A DNA stretch of 27,109 nucleotides. Origin: a virus. A program made the translations under genes and the position numbers. Under the pieces are notes generated by a model. The model did no database searches and was not told the origin of the DNA. It saw nothing but the letters and a program-made list of their open reading frames with translations. This document shows, piece by piece, positions 773-26,574 of the stretch (position 1 is its first letter; every line of letters starts with the position of its first letter). Location: IMG/VR virus record IMGVR_UViG_3300011114_000466, positions 1 through 27,109 of that record. One strand, written 5' to 3'.

Positions 773-929
773 AGCCGGAGAAGAAAACAGTCTTGCCCAT
801 TACAAACGTGCAGATCGTTGGCACGACAAGTGCGATGCAAAGGGGTGTGTATGCCAGCACAAGACTGGTCCAGGGTACGTAAAGCGGGCAGATACAAAGG
901 TGCCATTGATGCAAACTCAATCCCCATAG
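750..929 (+). CDS. small zinc-binding protein, 59 aa
   Basis: This ORF opens with MICPWCLRAG and contains a second cluster, KCDAKGCVCQH. That gives a CxxC pair plus Cys/His ligands able to bind one zinc ion. Short proteins of this type are frequent next to phage primases, but the exact function is unknown. It overlaps the acidic ORF upstream (23 bases) and the CHC2 primase gene downstream (79 bases from the start chosen there). The dense overlap makes the exact start of the following gene uncertain. Confidence 0.55.
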   Translation: MICPWCLRAGEENSLAHYKRADRWHDKCDAKGCVCQHKTGPGYVKRADTKVPLMQTQSP

Positions 930-1228
930 GAGCAATCGTTTCCCACTTCGGTGGTGAAGTAAGAGAAGGTAAAAGCGCATCAGTAAGATGTTGCTTACAT
1001 AGCGACAGTCGCAGGTCTGCCGTTATCAATACCTATGACAACCTGTACTTCTGCCATACCTGCGGTAAGGGTGGCAATGCAGCTAACTTAGTGTGCATAC
1101 TAGAGAACTTGGAGTTTAACGATGGCCTCAAACGTGCAGTCGAAATTGCTACTGGAAGCGGCGCAACAATACGCTCAGGCAATAAGTCCAGAGGCTCTAG
1201 CCGTACTAAACGCACGTGGGATATCTGA
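851..1228 (+). CDS. DNA primase, CHC2 zinc-finger domain subunit
   Basis: About 125 aa carrying the CHC2 zinc finger of DnaG-type primases. The ligands are C47, H50, C68 and C71 (RCCLHSD then FCHTCGKGGNAANLV), followed by the helix that closes this domain. The domain recognises the priming site on single-stranded DNA. The start chosen is the ATG at 851, behind AAAGGGG. A longer version from a TTG at 818 is possible. The gene contains no catalytic core. That lies in the next ORF, which starts 107 bases before this one ends, in the +1 frame. Together the two make a split primase. Confidence 0.8.
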   Translation: MPAQDWSRVRKAGRYKGAIDANSIPIGAIVSHFGGEVREGKSASVRCCLHSDSRRSAVINTYDNLYFCHTCGKGGNAANLVCILENLEFNDGLKRAVEIATGSGATIRSGNKSRGSSRTKRTWDI

Positions 1229-1772
1229 ACAAACTGCAGCACGCTTTCAGTTAGGAACTATTACCAACCCAATCAATGGCCACGAGATGTATGCAGGGTG
1301 GCTTTCTATTCCATACATCACCGCATCTGGTGGTTGTGTTGGCTTTAAGTTTAGACGATTAGATGATCTTAAACCTAAGTATGGTTCACCTACTGGGCAG
1401 AAGGCACACCTGTATAACGTATGTGACATCACTCTTGACTCACCTTATATCGTTGTATGTGAAGGTGAACTAGATGCCATTGTTACTAGTGGAGAGTTAG
1501 GCATACCAGCAGTAGGTGTACCTGGTGTTGCAGCCTGGAAGAATCACTTTCCAAAACTCTTTACTGGTTATGAAACTATCTATGTGGTGGGCGATAATGA
1601 CGTCAAAGAGGATGGCTCTAACCCTGGAGCTGAGTTTGCAAAACGCGTTGCGAATGAGGTAATGAACTCACAGATTGTTACACTACCACCAGGTATGGAC
1701 ATCAATGATTACTACTTAGCCAACGGTGGTAGTGCTACAAAAAAGTTACTGATAGGGGAGTCCAATGTATGA
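1122..1772 (+). CDS. DNA primase, TOPRIM catalytic subunit
   Basis: A 216-aa protein equivalent to the catalytic core of DnaG. The N-terminal helix pair (LAVLNARGISEQTAARFQLG) resembles the segment just after the zinc finger in DnaG. The TOPRIM signatures are VCEGELDAI with catalytic E114, and VVGDNDVKEDG with metal-binding D158 and D160. It would synthesise RNA primers for phage replication, presumably together with the CHC2 protein upstream. A helicase domain is absent, so a separate helicase is needed. The ATG at 1122 has a GGAG-like site upstream. The start lies inside the CHC2 gene, so 107 bases are read in two frames. Confidence 0.85.
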   Translation: MASNVQSKLLLEAAQQYAQAISPEALAVLNARGISEQTAARFQLGTITNPINGHEMYAGWLSIPYITASGGCVGFKFRRLDDLKPKYGSPTGQKAHLYNVCDITLDSPYIVVCEGELDAIVTSGELGIPAVGVPGVAAWKNHFPKLFTGYETIYVVGDNDVKEDGSNPGAEFAKRVANEVMNSQIVTLPPGMDINDYYLANGGSATKKLLIGESNV

Positions 1773-3416: not shown

Positions 3417-3824
3417 TTAAGAAACGTTAGCCACATCTACTATATTCTGTATGAGCCACTCTACCACAGGTACTGCAACTGCATTACCCATTTGCTTATA
3501 GCGAGCAGAGTCTGATTGCCCAGCAGTCCAGTCATCAGGAAAACCTTGCAATCTTTCACATTCTACTGGTGTTAAGCGGCGTACTGTTGTTTCTTTAGCA
3601 ACCATTGATACGTTGTTCCCTCCTGTACCCATAAAAGCTGTGAGTGTATTGATTACATCTCCTTGTAATCTAAACCCATCAAATCTGTGCGGATGAAAAA
3701 CAATAACAGTCGTTCTAATATCACCATTATCAAATGCGTTTAATGTAGGCATTACTCCTCCTTCAATCCACGTCTCGTAGTCTTGTTCATTCTGTGCTTG
3801 CCTACCCTTCGTGAACCACAACAT
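3417..3824 (-). CDS. C5-cytosine methyltransferase, C-terminal half (beta frame)
   Basis: This 135-aa frame carries the C-terminal elements of a DNA (cytosine-5) methyltransferase. A target-recognition-like region is followed by motif IX (RRLTPVECERLQGFPDDW, residues 82-99) and motif X (GNAVAVPVVEWL). The catalytic motifs are in the upstream frame (3802-4527). The two overlap by 23 bases and differ by one base in phase. An internal ATG at 3824 has GGAAG five bases upstream, so this part could be made as a separate subunit, as in M.AquI. Removing one G from the GGG at the end of the alpha frame would instead fuse them. Programmed frameshift, split enzyme and sequencing error all remain possible. 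Confidence 0.75.
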   Translation of the reverse strand: MLWFTKGRQAQNEQDYETWIEGGVMPTLNAFDNGDIRTTVIVFHPHRFDGFRLQGDVINTLTAFMGTGGNNVSMVAKETTVRRLTPVECERLQGFPDDWTAGQSDSARYKQMGNAVAVPVVEWLIQNIVDVANVS

Positions 3825-4527
3825 TGTCTTCCGGTCTTTTGTATGTAGTAGCGGTAAGAGTTGTCACTCCTGGTGAGTACTTGGCGAAGCCTGTTTGACC
3901 AAAGCTAAGCGGAGTGCTTCCGGTAATACCTTCTCTCGTCTCGATGATCTGCGTAGGATTCCTTCGCAAGCCCTCTGACTTAAATAGTATTTCGGCAATG
4001 CCTCGTTCAGAAGAACGTCGCCCAACGATGAAGATTCTTTTGCGTCGCTGGGGTACTCCGAAGTATTGAGCATCAAGCACACGCCAGCCGACAGAATACC
4101 CGAGGTCGGCCATCGTCCCGACGACGACTCCAAAATCTGCTCCCTTGTTACTGGATAGCAGACCAGGTACGTTTTCGAGAATGAAGTATTCGCTTTGCGC
4201 TTCTTCCACAATTCGGGCAGCTTCCCAGAATAACCCGCTTCGTGCGCCAGCAAGACCAGCTCTTTTGCCAGCAACGCTGACGTCTTGACAGGGAAATCCT
4301 CCTGCAATAATACCTCTGCTTGGATTAAATCCTGCTCCAATTAAGTCACTTCCTTTCACTGTAGTTACATCATCAAATTGTTTTGCATCAGGGAAGTGCC
4401 TTGCTAGTACCTCATTGCACTTCTTATCTATCTCAACAGAGGCTACAACCCTCACACCCTGTCGTTGCATAGCAAGATCAAAGCCTCCAACACCAGCGAA
4501 TAAAGATACGCCTGTTAACTTATCCAT
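3802..4527 (-). CDS. C5-cytosine methyltransferase, N-terminal catalytic half (alpha frame)
   Basis: A 241-aa frame with the core motifs of m5C DNA methyltransferases. The SAM-binding motif I is LFAGVGGFDLA (residues 9-19). Motif IV is GGFPCQDVSVAG with catalytic C80, motif VI is LENVPG, and motif VIII is QRRKRIFIVG. It ends at a TAG after VVVHEG, just before the target-recognition region, which continues in the neighbouring +1 frame. It transfers a methyl group to cytosine C5 at an unknown site and probably protects phage DNA from host restriction. No partner endonuclease is in view. Its ATG overlaps the stop of the preceding methyltransferase gene by one base. Confidence 0.85.
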   Translation of the reverse strand: MDKLTGVSLFAGVGGFDLAMQRQGVRVVASVEIDKKCNEVLARHFPDAKQFDDVTTVKGSDLIGAGFNPSRGIIAGGFPCQDVSVAGKRAGLAGARSGLFWEAARIVEEAQSEYFILENVPGLLSSNKGADFGVVVGTMADLGYSVGWRVLDAQYFGVPQRRKRIFIVGRRSSERGIAEILFKSEGLRRNPTQIIETREGITGSTPLSFGQTGFAKYSPGVTTLTATTYKRPEDNVVVHEG

Positions 4528-5159
4528 TACTGCCCTTCTATTACTTTAAGTAATTCTTCACCCAATGAATAAGGAACACGTGATCGTTCTCTTGCTCCCT
4601 TTAATCCTTGCGTACCTGTCCTGGCTCCACGTGGTGCAGCTACGTGGCAAGGCATACCGTTCTTACACATATCACGAGGTATCCAATTAGGTACTACTCC
4701 CCACAGATCTGTAGGTTTCATACGACCATCTCCGTACTGACAATAGGTAACTGTTGTGCGTGGTAGCCCAGCCACTACTGGTAGTTTACGAAGCATACCT
4801 CTAGGGTTCTCCATCAGCCAACCTTTAATTGGATTCAAATCTTTAATCAGTTTAACTGTATGTGCTACCAGGTCTTGACTTACTTTGGCAGCTTCGGTCT
4901 TAGGTTCATATGCTTTTGCACCACCGCCCCAATGGTGGCCCATAGAGGCCACACTAAAAGCGGTGCAAGGTGGACTAGCCCATATAAAATCAGGCTGACC
5001 ATACTTAGCAATCAAATCAATGGCGTTCAAGTTAAAGACATCAACGTGTTCAGTAGCTTCAAAGAACTCATCTATCTCAAAGGTGATAACAGTATGACCT
5101 GCATCTTTGAAAGCCTGTGTAGAACTACCAGTACCCGAAAAGAAATCAAATACCAGCAT
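4527..5159 (-). CDS. compact DNA cytosine methyltransferase-like protein
   Basis: A 210-aa protein with motif I FDFFSGTGSSTQAF, motif IV WASPPCTAFSV with catalytic C65, and motif VI MENPRG (residues 116-121). The C-terminal part (YCQYGDGRMKPTDLWG, then Cys/His-containing segments) differs from standard C5 methyltransferases, and a clear motif IX/X is missing. This short form is common in phages and is usually annotated as a DNA cytosine methyltransferase. A role in another cytosine modification cannot be excluded. Its ATG overlaps the end of the Dam-family gene by 14 bases, so the three methyltransferases are probably co-translated. Confidence 0.75.
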   Translation of the reverse strand: MLVFDFFSGTGSSTQAFKDAGHTVITFEIDEFFEATEHVDVFNLNAIDLIAKYGQPDFIWASPPCTAFSVASMGHHWGGGAKAYEPKTEAAKVSQDLVAHTVKLIKDLNPIKGWLMENPRGMLRKLPVVAGLPRTTVTYCQYGDGRMKPTDLWGVVPNWIPRDMCKNGMPCHVAAPRGARTGTQGLKGARERSRVPYSLGEELLKVIEGQ

Positions 5160-5634
5160 CTTCCACCTCTTTAGGCTTCATAATTACGGCAGCGCTTGGG
5201 AATGGTGCAGAGTTTTTGCCATCACCAAACTTGAGACGACCCTTAATGAAGCGAACCTCGTGGTGAATACAACTATCCCACCACCAGTTAGTATCAGTAC
5301 GGGCTGGTACCAGGCACACTACTGTTAAACCTTTCTTGCTTTCTTCGTTAGCCTTAGCAACCCAAGTATTGATACCTCTTCCATATGGTGGGTTCAACCA
5401 TACAGTTTTGCTTGGCGCATACTCTGACCAATCAAGAACCAAAGCATCACGCATACCAGGATTGATATGATCAGGGCCAAAGTATGTTTCACATAGAGCT
5501 GAGTCCTCTAAAGCAGCAGCATCTAAAGTGAAGTTAAACTCAGCGTGCATCTTTGCATAGAAAGATTTAGGAGTAGTCCAAGTATCATCTACTGATGATC
5601 TAAAAGTGTCTCCTTTATAGAATCCCTCACTCAT
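5146..5634 (-). CDS. phage N6-adenine DNA methyltransferase (Dam family)
   Basis: A 162-aa protein of the phage DNA N-6-adenine-methyltransferase type. The N-terminal DTWTTPKSFYAKMHAEF and FTLDAAA segments and the catalytic motif WLNPPYGRGINTWV (NPPY at 81-84) are characteristic. A later segment, GRLKFGDGKNSAPFPSAAV, is also typical. It would methylate adenine at N6 in phage or host DNA. Its ATG overlaps the transglycosylase stop as ATGA. It probably serves in restriction evasion together with the two cytosine methyltransferases downstream. Confidence 0.88.
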   Translation of the reverse strand: MSEGFYKGDTFRSSVDDTWTTPKSFYAKMHAEFNFTLDAAALEDSALCETYFGPDHINPGMRDALVLDWSEYAPSKTVWLNPPYGRGINTWVAKANEESKKGLTVVCLVPARTDTNWWWDSCIHHEVRFIKGRLKFGDGKNSAPFPSAAVIMKPKEVEDAGI

Positions 5635-8027: not shown

Positions 8028-8083
8028 CTGATGACCTCATCAGTAGCCGAATTACGGCTAGACCCCCGAAGGGGTTTCGGTCT
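8028..8083. other. three tandem inverted repeats in a spacer
   Basis: Three perfect or near-perfect hairpins are packed into 56 bases. CTGATGA-CC-TCATCAG covers 8028-8043. TAGCCG-aatta-CGGCTA covers 8044-8060. An AGACC...GGTCT stem with an inner CCC/GGG covers 8060-8083. They occupy nearly the whole gap between the 63-aa and 72-aa genes. A leftward transcript would fold them just before the ribosome site of the 72-aa gene. They could act as terminator, processing site or protein-binding operator. No T-run is present. Confidence 0.55.
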
Positions 8084-8276: not shown

Positions 8277-8416
8277 TAGATTTCCTCCAATTGTTTGTTC
8301 CAGCATATAGCGCAGATTACGTTGTAGAAATCAACACCTGCCCAGTATGGGCGAAGGGTTGCTTTAGTTGAGTCACTTAAAAGGTTTTTGCTTGATTGGC
8401 ATAAGTCGCACTTCAT
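8276..8416 (-). CDS. small two-CxxC zinc-finger-like protein, 46 aa
   Basis: MKCDLC at the N-terminus and VICAICW near the C-terminus form a CxxC-CxxC pair about 30 residues apart, typical of a single structural zinc site. It begins at 8416, overlapping the preceding stop by one base (TAATG), behind AGGAAA. Short zinc proteins of this kind often bind nucleic acid or a host protein. No specific role can be assigned. Confidence 0.55.
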   Translation of the reverse strand: MKCDLCQSSKNLLSDSTKATLRPYWAGVDFYNVICAICWNKQLEEI

Positions 8417-8586
8417 TATTTTGTTTCCTTTCCTAGTTGATGAATTGTTTCTTCAGTAAATAGAACAAGAAATGACCAAGTTTGTTCTTCAATGTTGTTA
8501 TCGAAATTAGGGAAATGCTTCACGATTACTTCGGAGAAATCTTCCATCATCGCGTTGTGCTTTTCATTTCGTTGTTGTTGATCCAT
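8416..8586 (-). CDS. first gene of the leftward operon, 56 aa hypothetical
   Basis: ATG at 8586 is chosen because it follows GAAAGGGTGAACC. The open frame extends upstream without another good site. The protein is helical and acidic (MMEDFSEVIVKHFPNFDN, then EEQTWSFLVLFTEETIHQL). No family is recognised. As the gene nearest the divergence region it is expected to be transcribed first and is a candidate early gene. Confidence 0.6.
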   Translation of the reverse strand: MDQQQRNEKHNAMMEDFSEVIVKHFPNFDNNIEEQTWSFLVLFTEETIHQLGKETK

Positions 8587-8604
8587 TTGGTTCACCCTTT
8601 CAAG

Positions 8605-8631
8605 TTGTGGAAGTCCCACAAAGAAAGGATA
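8605..8631 (-). promoter_or_regulatory. candidate operator and -10 of the leftward operon
   Basis: TTGTGG-aagtc-CCACAA is a perfect 6-bp inverted repeat (8605-8621) placed 19 bases before the first leftward gene. On the leftward strand a TATCCT lies at 8631-8626 and could be a -10 element. The palindrome would then overlap the transcript start. No TTGACA-like -35 is found at the right distance, so the promoter may need an activator or a phage sigma factor. Confidence 0.35.
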
Positions 8632-8813: not shown

Positions 8814-8869
8814 GAGTCCAGTAGTGGATCCTCTTTTGGTTGGGGGTTGGTCGGTTGGGTTGTTTGATC

Positions 8870-8928
8870 ATTGGGGTCGAACATCTGTTTGGTTGGGGTT
8901 GTTAAATGGGAATCGAACAATTGTTTGG
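8870..8928 (+). repeat. two iteron-like repeats spaced 36 nt
   Basis: TCGAACA-NNT-GTTTGG occurs at 8877-8892 and 8913-8928, exactly 36 bases apart, inside a tract of alternating TTGG and GGGG runs on the + strand (about 8834-8935). Being next to DnaA boxes, they may be binding sites for an initiator. Only two copies are clear. Confidence 0.45.
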
Positions 8929-8970
8929 GGTTGCCGGAAGTAGAGTCAGCCCCTGCCTTTTTTCTTAAAC

Positions 8971-9014
8971 TTATCCACAGGCTTTATCCACAGGGCAGGC
9001 TAGGGTGTGGATAA
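8971..9014. promoter_or_regulatory. cluster of three perfect DnaA boxes, candidate replication origin
   Basis: TTATCCACA occurs at 8971-8979 and 8984-8992, and its complement TGTGGATAA at 9006-9014. Three exact matches to the bacterial DnaA box within 44 bases are very unlikely by chance. They are flanked by a G/T-rich strand-asymmetric tract on the left and AT-rich stretches on the right (9081-9100 and 9131-9155) that could unwind. Divergent gene blocks start on either side. The likely meaning is that the phage recruits host DnaA for initiation or for regulation. Confidence 0.65.
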
Positions 9015-9048
9015 CTGGTCAGACCGCAGAAAGGCCGACCCCCCCTTG

Positions 9049-9077
9049 TTGAATTGTGGCGCGGGGGACTGTATACT
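9049..9077 (+). promoter_or_regulatory. sigma70-type rightward promoter
   Basis: TTGAAT (9049-9054) and TATACT (9072-9077) are separated by exactly 17 bases, a good match to the bacterial housekeeping consensus. It lies just right of the DnaA boxes and points toward the terminase and structural genes, about 500 bases upstream of terminase. It could drive the late block or produce an RNA primer or leader. No other comparable promoter was found in this spacer. Confidence 0.5.
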
Positions 9078-9255
9078 CCCCAACAAAATATATTTCCTAA
9101 AGTGAGATCGCAGAATACAGCTCTGACCTGCGGTTATATTATGTAATAGTAATGTGACGTAGTTCACATTGTAAAAACGAGAAACCCAGTCCATTTCCTG
9201 CCTTATATATAGTAGGGGAGTAAAACGGGGAGAGTATGTTTTACGACCCTTGGTT

Positions 9256-9336
9256 GGCCTCTAGCGAGGCCCCTAGGCCGAGTTAAGTATTACCCCTCAG
9301 TTCGCTGTGGCTCCCTCGGGCGCTAAGCCCGAACTG
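9256..9336 (+). other. structured leader with competing GC-rich hairpins
   Basis: GGCCTC-tagc-GAGGCC (9256-9271) competes with GGCC-ccta-GGCC (9268-9279). Downstream, CAGTTC (9298-9303) pairs with GAACTG (9331-9336) around a perfect TCGGGC-gctaa-GCCCGA hairpin. A T5 run follows at 9344-9348, too far away for a standard terminator. Located between the rightward promoter and terminase, it may control read-through, RNA processing or DNA packaging. Confidence 0.4.
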
Positions 9337-9418
9337 CCCAGTATTTTTAGTGGGGATAGCTCTGTCTCTAGTAGGAAAATGACCTTCGACCTAGTATAAG
9401 AAATGAGCATCCGCGCCG

Positions 9419-9583
9419 ATGAGACGTAACTATACAGAAGAAGAAATCTATCTTCAGATGACCTCTAGTAGAAAATTCTGGAACCAGTACAAGGCGCAGC
9501 GAGAACCCCGTCGCTTAGAAATGCGCCGCAAGATTGCGGCAGCAATTCTAGTAGAAGAGATGAGACGGGCAAACAATGGCTGA
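9419..9583 (+). CDS. small basic protein upstream of terminase, 54 aa
   Basis: ATG at 9419 to TGA at 9583, overlapping the terminase start by 8 bases. The product is Arg-rich and helical (KFWNQYKAQREPRRLEMRRK, then AAAILVEEMRRANNG). It lies where a small terminase subunit is usually encoded, but it is far shorter than known ones, and terminase itself carries an N-terminal HTH-like segment. The ribosome binding site is weak. Probably a real DNA-binding or regulatory peptide. Function unknown. Confidence 0.45.
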   Translation: MRRNYTEEEIYLQMTSSRKFWNQYKAQREPRRLEMRRKIAAAILVEEMRRANNG

Positions 9584-11435
9584 GAACAGCGCAGACATAG
9601 CCAAGAGAATTATCCTTGGCTGTGTAGCTGAAGGTATGACCATTGAGGCCGCCTGTACCTCGGCAGGCAAATCAATGAAGACCTACGAGTACTATCGTAG
9701 AACTGACAAGATCTTTACAGACAAGGTTGATAGAACACGCCTTGGTCTAAAGGATAAGAGCTTTGCCTCATCCGATGTACACGACTTATCTTTCCCAGAG
9801 TTTCGCCAGAAGTATCTACACTCCCGCACTTTCCCACACCAGCAGAATCTGATAGATGTAATCGAAGGCAGAGAACCTGGCTGGCTACATCCTAGTATGA
9901 AGTACGAAAAGGGTCTGGCTAATAACAGAATCCTTTTGAACATTCCGCCCAACCACGCCAAGTCTATGACTGTGACCATTGATTACGTCACTTGGCAGGT
10001 TTGTCAGAACCCTAACTTCAGAGTCCTGATAGTTTCACAAACGCAGCAATTGGCTGCTGACTTTCTCTACGCCATCAAGCAACGCCTGACTCATCCAAAT
10101 TATGAAGCACTCCAACAGGCTTACGCTGCTGGCGTAGGGTTTAACTCTAAGTCAGCCTCGTGGCAGGCTACCCGTGTCACCTTTGGTGATGAGCTACGTG
10201 AGTCCAGCGAGAAGGACCCGAACATTGAAGCCGTTGGTATCGGCGGTCAGATCTACGGCAAGCGTGCAGATATGATTATCGTAGATGACGCAGTAACCTT
10301 GAAGAACGCTAACGAGTTTGAGAAGCAAATCCGTTGGCTAACCCAGGACGTGCGCTCTCGTTTGAACCCTACTGGTAAATTGATTATTATTGGTACTAGA
10401 GTCTCTGCAGTAGATCTGTACAAAGAACTACGCTCCGAAGACCGCTACCCTGGTGGACAGGTCCCTTGGACCTACCTTGCAATGCCAGCTTTGCTTTCTA
10501 CAGACAATGACCCCGATAAGTGGGAAACCCTTTGGCCTGCATCTGATGCCCCTTTTGATGGTCAGATGGAATCTGATTTGAATGAAGACGGCCTCTACCC
10601 TAGATGGAATGGTCGCAACCTTTACAATGAACGCCAAGCTATGGATGCAAGCACCTGGGCTTTGGTTTACCAACAACAAGATATCTCAGATGATGCCATC
10701 TTTGACCCAGTATGTGTGCGAGGCTCTATAGATGGAATGCGTAAAGCAGGTCGTTTGGTTCCTGGTAACCCAGGCCATCCGCGTGATGTTAACGGCTTTT
10801 CTTTTATTTGTGGTCTTGATCCCGCTATGGTTGGTGATACAGCCGTCGTTTGTTACGCTGTTGATAGGGCTACACATAAACGCTATATCGTTGATGCTAT
10901 TAAAATTACTAGGCCAACGCCTGCTGCAATCCGTCAGTTAATCTTTGACTGGACTAGCCTCTACTCACCGAGTGAGTGGATAGTAGAGAAGAACGCATTT
11001 CAATCTTTCTTAACTCAGGATGAAGGTATCCGTGCAAACTTGGCCTCTCGAGGAGTGCTACTGCGGGAACACCATACTGGAACCAACAAGTGGGACTCAG
11101 GCTTTGGTGTTGCATCAATGTCAACTTTGTTTGGCACCAAGCAGTTCGATGGCAAGCACCACCGCGATAACCTTATTCACTTGCCTTCAGATCAAACTGA
11201 AAACATTAAGGCGCTCATTGAGCAATTGATTACGTGGTCGCCTAGTACTAAAGGCAAGACCGATATGGTGATGGCTCTGTGGTTCTGTGAGATTAGAGCA
11301 CGTGAGATGCTCAACCAAGGTATGCACAAGACCCACCATATGAAAAACCCTTTCCTATCTCGACAAGAAGTAGGCAAACGAACAGTTATCAACATAGATG
11401 AACTGCTCGCAGAGAAAGATCGTACATTCATTTAA
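9576..11435 (+). CDS. terL: terminase large subunit
   Basis: A 619-aa packaging motor. Residues 1-60 form an HTH-like segment (MTIEAACTSAGKSMKTYEYY) reminiscent of small terminases. The ATPase has a Walker A-like IPPNHAKSM (123-131), adenine-side VLIVSQTQ, Walker B MIIVDDA (233-239) and the coupling motif IIIGTR. The nuclease domain starts at ICGLDPAMVGD (D415), with a second acid at WIVEKN (E471). It cuts concatemeric DNA and pumps it through the portal. Length and motif order are normal for TerL. A recognisable separate small subunit is missing, so the N-terminal segment may contribute DNA recognition. Confidence 0.93.
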   Translation: MAENSADIAKRIILGCVAEGMTIEAACTSAGKSMKTYEYYRRTDKIFTDKVDRTRLGLKDKSFASSDVHDLSFPEFRQKYLHSRTFPHQQNLIDVIEGREPGWLHPSMKYEKGLANNRILLNIPPNHAKSMTVTIDYVTWQVCQNPNFRVLIVSQTQQLAADFLYAIKQRLTHPNYEALQQAYAAGVGFNSKSASWQATRVTFGDELRESSEKDPNIEAVGIGGQIYGKRADMIIVDDAVTLKNANEFEKQIRWLTQDVRSRLNPTGKLIIIGTRVSAVDLYKELRSEDRYPGGQVPWTYLAMPALLSTDNDPDKWETLWPASDAPFDGQMESDLNEDGLYPRWNGRNLYNERQAMDASTWALVYQQQDISDDAIFDPVCVRGSIDGMRKAGRLVPGNPGHPRDVNGFSFICGLDPAMVGDTAVVCYAVDRATHKRYIVDAIKITRPTPAAIRQLIFDWTSLYSPSEWIVEKNAFQSFLTQDEGIRANLASRGVLLREHHTGTNKWDSGFGVASMSTLFGTKQFDGKHHRDNLIHLPSDQTENIKALIEQLITWSPSTKGKTDMVMALWFCEIRAREMLNQGMHKTHHMKNPFLSRQEVGKRTVINIDELLAEKDRTFI

Positions 11436-25692: not shown

Positions 25693-25696
<4 letters not shown>
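25352..25696 (+). CDS. tail-associated beta-sandwich protein, 114 aa
   Basis: The start is probably the TTG at 25352, which overlaps the stop of the preceding gene (TTGA). The sequence is an alternating beta pattern: [65 protein letters not shown]. This arrangement is typical of a small phage tail or baseplate domain (BppU-N-like) that often precedes collagen-like fibres. It likely anchors or joins the fibre encoded next. The next gene overlaps it by 4 bases. Confidence 0.6.

Positions 25697-26574
<878 letters not shown>

Follow-up and report, generated by a model that had tools for sequence, protein, structure and literature searches.

What does a phage do with a tight cluster of perfect DnaA boxes, and do these boxes mark a replication origin of the host type? 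The window, meaning the whole stretch of DNA that was analysed, is a 27-kb IMG/VR fragment (27,109 nucleotides, ~45% GC) of a freshwater phage in which two gene blocks diverge around such a cluster. The last minus-strand gene lies at 8416-8619, and the first plus-strand genes at 9419-9583 and 9576-11435, the second of which encodes the terminase large subunit (terL; PHROG 38). These coordinates, with minus-strand genes up to 8619 and plus-strand genes from 9419, bear out the divergence at the boxes described in a first-pass annotation of this DNA, which had read the locus as a host-type replication origin.

DnaA boxes and their replacement in related phages

Two of the three boxes, both matching TTATCCACA on the plus strand, occupy positions 8971-8979 and 8984-8992 with a 4-nt spacer between them; the third (TGTGGATAA, 9006-9014) is inverted on the minus strand and is found in a minority of relatives. 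All three fall within 44 bases, at the positions claimed for them earlier, and TTATCCACA has no further perfect copy in the 27,109-base window. By first-order Markov simulation, 0.26 perfect boxes are expected per window by chance, and none of 1500 simulated windows had two perfect boxes within 50 bp of each other, nor three, which places the clustering beyond chance.

A terminase search of IMG/VR returned hundreds of relatives, and scans that used the terminase and a conserved stretch of DNA as anchors yielded 99 distinct copies of the region. Perfect DnaA boxes occur in 58 of these 99 regions (D type). At least two tandem plus-strand boxes are present in 55, mostly 11-13 or 20-21 bp apart from start to start, or about one or two helical turns; the D pairs have a constant orientation and spacers mostly of 2-4 or 11 nt. 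The 6,960 bp of D cassettes hold 126 perfect boxes (18/kb versus 0.05/kb in the genomes, ~350-fold denser), and TGTGGA occurs in all D cassettes and is absent from the remaining ones. The DnaA-type sites are genuine, conserved and selected. Because 58 of the 99 related regions keep the 9-mer perfect amid variable flanks, predicted binding of the boxes by host DnaA is well supported, and from the established specificity of DnaA we infer that the pair would be bound cooperatively.

The other 41 cassettes lack any perfect box and have other sites in its place, mostly TAGACA-N13-TGTCTA (T type). Further sites at the same place include TGCATAACTATGCA repeats, GAACAGTTGTTC and others (O type), and a LexA-type site occupies the cassette itself in L057 and L060. 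In a near-complete T-type genome of 39.7 kb (G003), TTATNCACA is entirely missing. Some box-less regions have 98-99% identical terminases. Conservation of the boxes in related phages, which the first-pass annotation had proposed as a check, fails in 41 of 99 regions, close relatives included. Given that close relatives do without boxes and carry other sites in that position, the DnaA cassette appears to be optional and exchangeable.

The extent of this exchange can be read from the terminase DNA tree, on which the cassette label requires 24 changes overall and the D label alone at least 16, forced by the starred branches. One pair captures the pattern: starting at the right-hand side of the cassette, L047 (D) and L048 (T) share 99% identity, and to the left of the cassette nothing is alignable in the stretches compared. 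No left-arm gene family was found to track cassette type across 9 kb in 74 regions (lowest uncorrected p, 0.07). Frequent switching without a matching left-arm phage gene suggests that the proteins binding the cassette are host-encoded, within the 9 kb and 74 regions that the left-arm test spans. On these sequence comparisons, the cassette is a genuine, exchangeable module, predicted to bind host DnaA, at a putative genome end.

A putative terminal repeat and its surroundings

The phage group to which the window belongs encodes a DnaB-like helicase, a split primase and a Cas4-type nuclease. The split primase of the window (zinc-finger and Toprim proteins, 818-1772, plus strand) belongs to the phage's own replication set, in agreement with the earlier claim that the phage encodes its own primase. 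A Beephvirinae-like gene set is present in the form of terminase, portal, a ~1,560-aa protein, capsid, split primase and RusA-like genes, together with a DnaB-like helicase, a Cas4/RecB nuclease and a sigma-like protein. The nearest named isolates are the Beephvirinae that infect Streptomyces (phages Immanuel3, Manuel, WRightOn, Stella, FlowerPower and Dennebes), with terminases 43-44% identical over 98%, and by gene set and terminase the window phage is allied with these actinobacterial Beephvirinae. A host search with the terminase and promoter sequence against genome contigs gave no match; Beephvirinae kinship and the LexA-type sites described below are the two indications of a putative actinobacterial host. 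Elsewhere in the window, a run of DNA methyltransferase genes lies on the minus strand at 3417-5634, with C5 methylase pieces at 3417-3824 and 3802-4527 (possibly a single gene split by a frameshift), a second C5-type methylase gene at 4527-5159 and a Dam-type gene at 5146-5634. Among the structural genes, 25693-26574 encodes a collagen-like protein with long G-P/A-T-G-X-T repeats.

Exact terminal repeats, 253-276 bp long, are present in six Beephvirinae isolates and end at a motif homologous to one flanking the boxes. The right edge of the Beephvirinae repeats reads ACCC(G/C)NGGGTTGTTAA...GAGTG^AGTCCC. Its counterpart in the freshwater regions, at the equivalent position before terL, consists of ACCCCCC or ACCCGGGG followed by TTGNTGAAT...ACTCCCC. 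In the window this right edge motif, GACCCCCCCTTGTTGAAT..N..TATACTCCCC, lies on the plus strand at 9037-9081 (Beephvirinae, ACCCGGGGGTTGTTAA..GGGGGAGTG^AGTCCCC). The left edge motif GTAGAGTCAGCCC, a consensus of 59 relatives, lies on the same strand at 8940-8952; the GTACA^GTCCC found at this edge in most Beephvirinae resembles the freshwater GTANAGTCNGCCC. The two edge motifs precede terL in the expected order, with a strong match on the right and a short one on the left. From this homology to the Beephvirinae edges, the boxes would be enclosed in a direct terminal repeat (DTR) of ~130 bp at 8945-9074, an assignment that we regard as probable. Across 38 relatives the repeat so delimited measures 121-149 bp, with a median of 129.

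The sites are placed with respect to the left edge. The first box of the window lies ~20 bases from the left edge motif, and the corresponding distance is 17-20 nt in 42 of the 45 D regions whose edge is clear, and 19-22 nt to the T site in 14 of 14 T regions. The distance to the right edge is variable, the boxes and the right-hand motif being 36-82 nt apart. A promoter candidate at 9049-9077, TTGAAT-17-TATACT, was dropped because it coincides with the conserved right edge, the counterpart of the DTR end in Beephvirinae. One genome, G002, wraps into a circle of ~38.8 kb, which is compatible with a terminal repeat and is no proof of one. Contig starts cluster 242-280 nt before the conserved motif TATATATAGTA, an accumulation explained equally well by assembly breaks at hypervariable borders, and among contigs of the GGTCTGACCAG class, right ends show no evident accumulation at that edge of the repeat.

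Perfect DnaA boxes are absent from the Beephvirinae terminal repeats, where near-boxes amount to a few one-mismatch TTGTCCACA in two isolates and TTGTACACA in a third. CGGACAT/ATGTCCG is ~42-fold denser in these repeats (L328 and L330-L334) than elsewhere, at 9.5/kb versus 0.22/kb. A seventh isolate, Abafar (L335, PP750865), was deposited with a terminal overlap of 396 bp, differing in extent from the 253-276 bp of the six; the deposited Beephvirinae ends are therefore not all consistent, and the discrepancy is probably one of assembly or end definition.

The sequence to the left of the putative repeat had been described as a G/T-rich tract with a 36-nt repeat. The tract is there, and the repeat resolves into two LexA/SOS-type palindromes spaced 36 bases apart, CGAACatctGTTTG / CGAACATCTGTTTG at 8878-8891 and CGAACaattGTTTG / CGAACAATTGTTTG at 8914-8927, each with one mismatch to CGAACN4GTTCG and together the sole matches with at most one mismatch in the window. 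Perfect sites of this type are found in L005 (two), L057 and L060, and most other relatives have no such sites. Candidate LexA/SOS-type operators lie beside or inside the putative terminal repeat in some phages of the group.

To the right, a CRP/GlxR-type palindrome (TGTGACGTAGTTCACA, of the form TGTGAN6TCACA) at 9153-9168 is present in all 99 regions, perfect in 69 and with one or two mismatches in 30. Its centre lies 43/44 or 59 nt before TATATATAGTA (9204-9214, plus strand), the probable -10 element of a rightward terminase/structural promoter, and this spacing fits a class I activator position. A CRP-type palindrome also lies right of the DTR in the Streptomyces Beephvirinae, and in Beephvirinae and freshwater regions alike it is followed by a TATA-like stretch. 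Between TATATATAGTA and terL, a highly conserved leader (9215-9365, plus strand) is probably structured, as judged from alignment and fold. In relatives the two arms of its hairpins are both altered (GTAAAAC/GTTTTAC, GCAAAGC/GCTTTGC; GGCCTC/GAGGCC; CGGGCG/GCCCG, CGGGAG/CTCCCG), with weak covariation by RNAalifold on a rough alignment that includes one wrong row (L274), and the leader matched no family in Rfam.

Possible replication start and alternative roles

For an origin speak the cluster of consensus DnaA boxes, three of them perfect in 44 bp, the exact match of the boxes to the DnaA consensus across diverse subclades, and a very unstable stretch in the vicinity. The arrangement met most often in bacterial origins is a tandem of boxes no more than 3 bp apart (PMC8287927). 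In none of the 58 D regions do DnaA-trios, sought by the BUS rule of the same work (PMC8287927), lie within 16 nt of the boxes on their CACA side, against a background of 27%. The cumulative GC-skew minimum of the window falls at 8067, near the boxes as the origin reading had anticipated, but gene direction accounts for it: the skew follows the coding strand, whose fourfold sites are rich in C to either side, and no strand-composition switch beyond that of gene direction occurs at the boxes. We rejected GC skew as an origin test, as a signal that tracks gene direction is uninformative. The AT-rich stretches reported on the right exist, and the least stable 30-mer (9134-9164), ~120 bases from the boxes, ranks in the lowest 0.1% of the window for stability; the AT-rich stretch overlaps the CRP-type site, and the DNA directly flanking the boxes is GC-rich, not AT-rich. 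The host-type origin first proposed is partly supported: the DnaA sites stand as perfect and recurrent, and the signs of an origin are mixed, with the lack of DnaA-trios, the GC-rich flanks, a skew that follows the genes, and close relatives without boxes counting against it.

The best reading overall, which we hold tentatively and at somewhat less than even confidence, is a host-DnaA cassette in the short DTR of a Beephvirinae-like phage that may be used for replication start. Once the genome ends have joined, host DnaA bound at the cassette would start, or help to start, replication, and the phage helicase and primase would work with the host polymerase. Use of host DnaA and polymerase is proposed because no phage initiator or DNA polymerase is recognisable among the genes of the group, Beephvirinae isolates included. 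Taken by itself, an origin or origin-helper function of the boxes seems to us conceivable and short of probable. Since placement of the boxes in a putative DTR makes other roles possible, such as packaging or an operator, a host-type replication origin is one possible reading among several.

The cassette might instead be an operator, a landing place where host regulators (DnaA, itself a known transcription factor, LexA, or the binder of TAGACA-N13-TGTCTA) control transcription, of the early genes to the left or of the terminase operon to the right, according to the state of the host. This is possible but on the whole unlikely. The position between divergent gene blocks agrees with it, as do the palindromic, operator-like form of the alternative cassettes, the two LexA-type sites 44-93 bases left of the boxes and the one inside the cassette in L057 and L060, the CRP-type site whose distance from the rightward TATATATAGTA is fixed in all 99 regions, the left-arm phage genes that do not covary with cassette type, and DnaA footprints near ori-lambda (PMC3985674). 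Yet the spacing between boxes and right-hand motif varies over the range given above, there is no convincing leftward promoter at the boxes, and the sites are anchored to a left edge motif that resembles a DTR edge rather than a promoter.

That anchoring, with its constant left and variable right distances, would suit a factor acting at the genome end, where DnaA in the terminal repeat, and other proteins in relatives, would act at the packaging cut, either as an architectural helper, the part that IHF plays at lambda cos, or as a block titrated away as copies accumulate. The location of the boxes inside the putative DTR, their constant orientation and the enrichment of another short motif, CGGACAT, in Beephvirinae repeats point the same way. 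We nevertheless consider this role doubtful: we know of no precedent for DnaA in packaging, the terminus and cut positions are themselves deduced, and the right ends of the GGTCTGACCAG-class contigs do not obviously gather at the right edge. We give equally little credence to a docking cassette in the terminal repeat for a host master regulator, DnaA in most of these phages and others in close relatives; the cassette would tie the processing of genome ends, or the onset of infection, to the replication state of the host and be swapped by recombination at the genome end. Least plausible, and in our judgement very improbable, is a simple sink in which the sites titrate host DnaA and so restrain host replication; high-affinity sites would presumably accumulate with phage copies, but two or three oriented, edge-anchored sites per genome have more structure than a sink needs.

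Comparison with known systems

The DnaA cassette resembles the basal unwinding system of bacterial oriC in its perfect TTATCCACA copies in same-orientation tandem, with a few-base spacer and constant polarity. Unlike oriC, the window has no DnaA-trios, GC-rich surroundings and no dnaA or dnaN neighbours, and its cassette is exchangeable in close relatives. Among phage systems, P1 oriR has host DnaA boxes near replication control, and in both lambda and P1 the phage encodes its own initiator nearby (O and RepA, respectively). The window differs from lambda and P1 in having no detected initiator and in the position of its boxes, in a putative terminal repeat upstream of the terminase. It shares with lambda ori/pO the setting in tailed-phage DNA, where DnaA leaves a footprint near pO (PMC3985674). 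Pseudomonas phage PseuGes_254 likewise combines DTRs with DnaA boxes in a predicted origin, but this phage is unrelated and its origin is predicted at 70.5 kb, inside the genome and not in a DTR (PMC11512268).

Tandem TTATCCACA pairs with spacers of 2-4 nt are also widespread, occurring in at least 120 stretches of other, unrelated viral contigs (L103-L222). They are often intergenic, with mixed neighbours, terminases and replication genes alike, and lie closer to contig ends than a uniform distribution would have them (p = 2e-4, 38 full contigs), a bias that could come from assembly breaks.

The closest comparison is with the Beephvirinae, which share with the window's group the gene set listed above, including a ~1,600-aa protein, and the order DTR edge, cassette, DTR edge, CRP-type site, TATA-like stretch, leader and terL. 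They differ in a DTR of 253-276 bp against ~130 bp, in repeats with repeated CGGACAT in place of DnaA boxes, and in infecting Streptomyces soil hosts, whereas the window has ~45% GC and its relatives are environmental contigs. Host DnaA boxes in phages are already known; a conserved, exchangeable cassette of them in the terminal repeat, as in this large group of uncultured freshwater phages, was not found in the literature searched. If DnaA is used there, the group would offer natural swap pairs, such as L047, with boxes, and L048, without them, in which to compare what the initiator does at phage genome ends. The location and exchange of the sites are the interesting part; given how often close relatives swap them, the sites probably amount to more than a mere replica of a bacterial origin.
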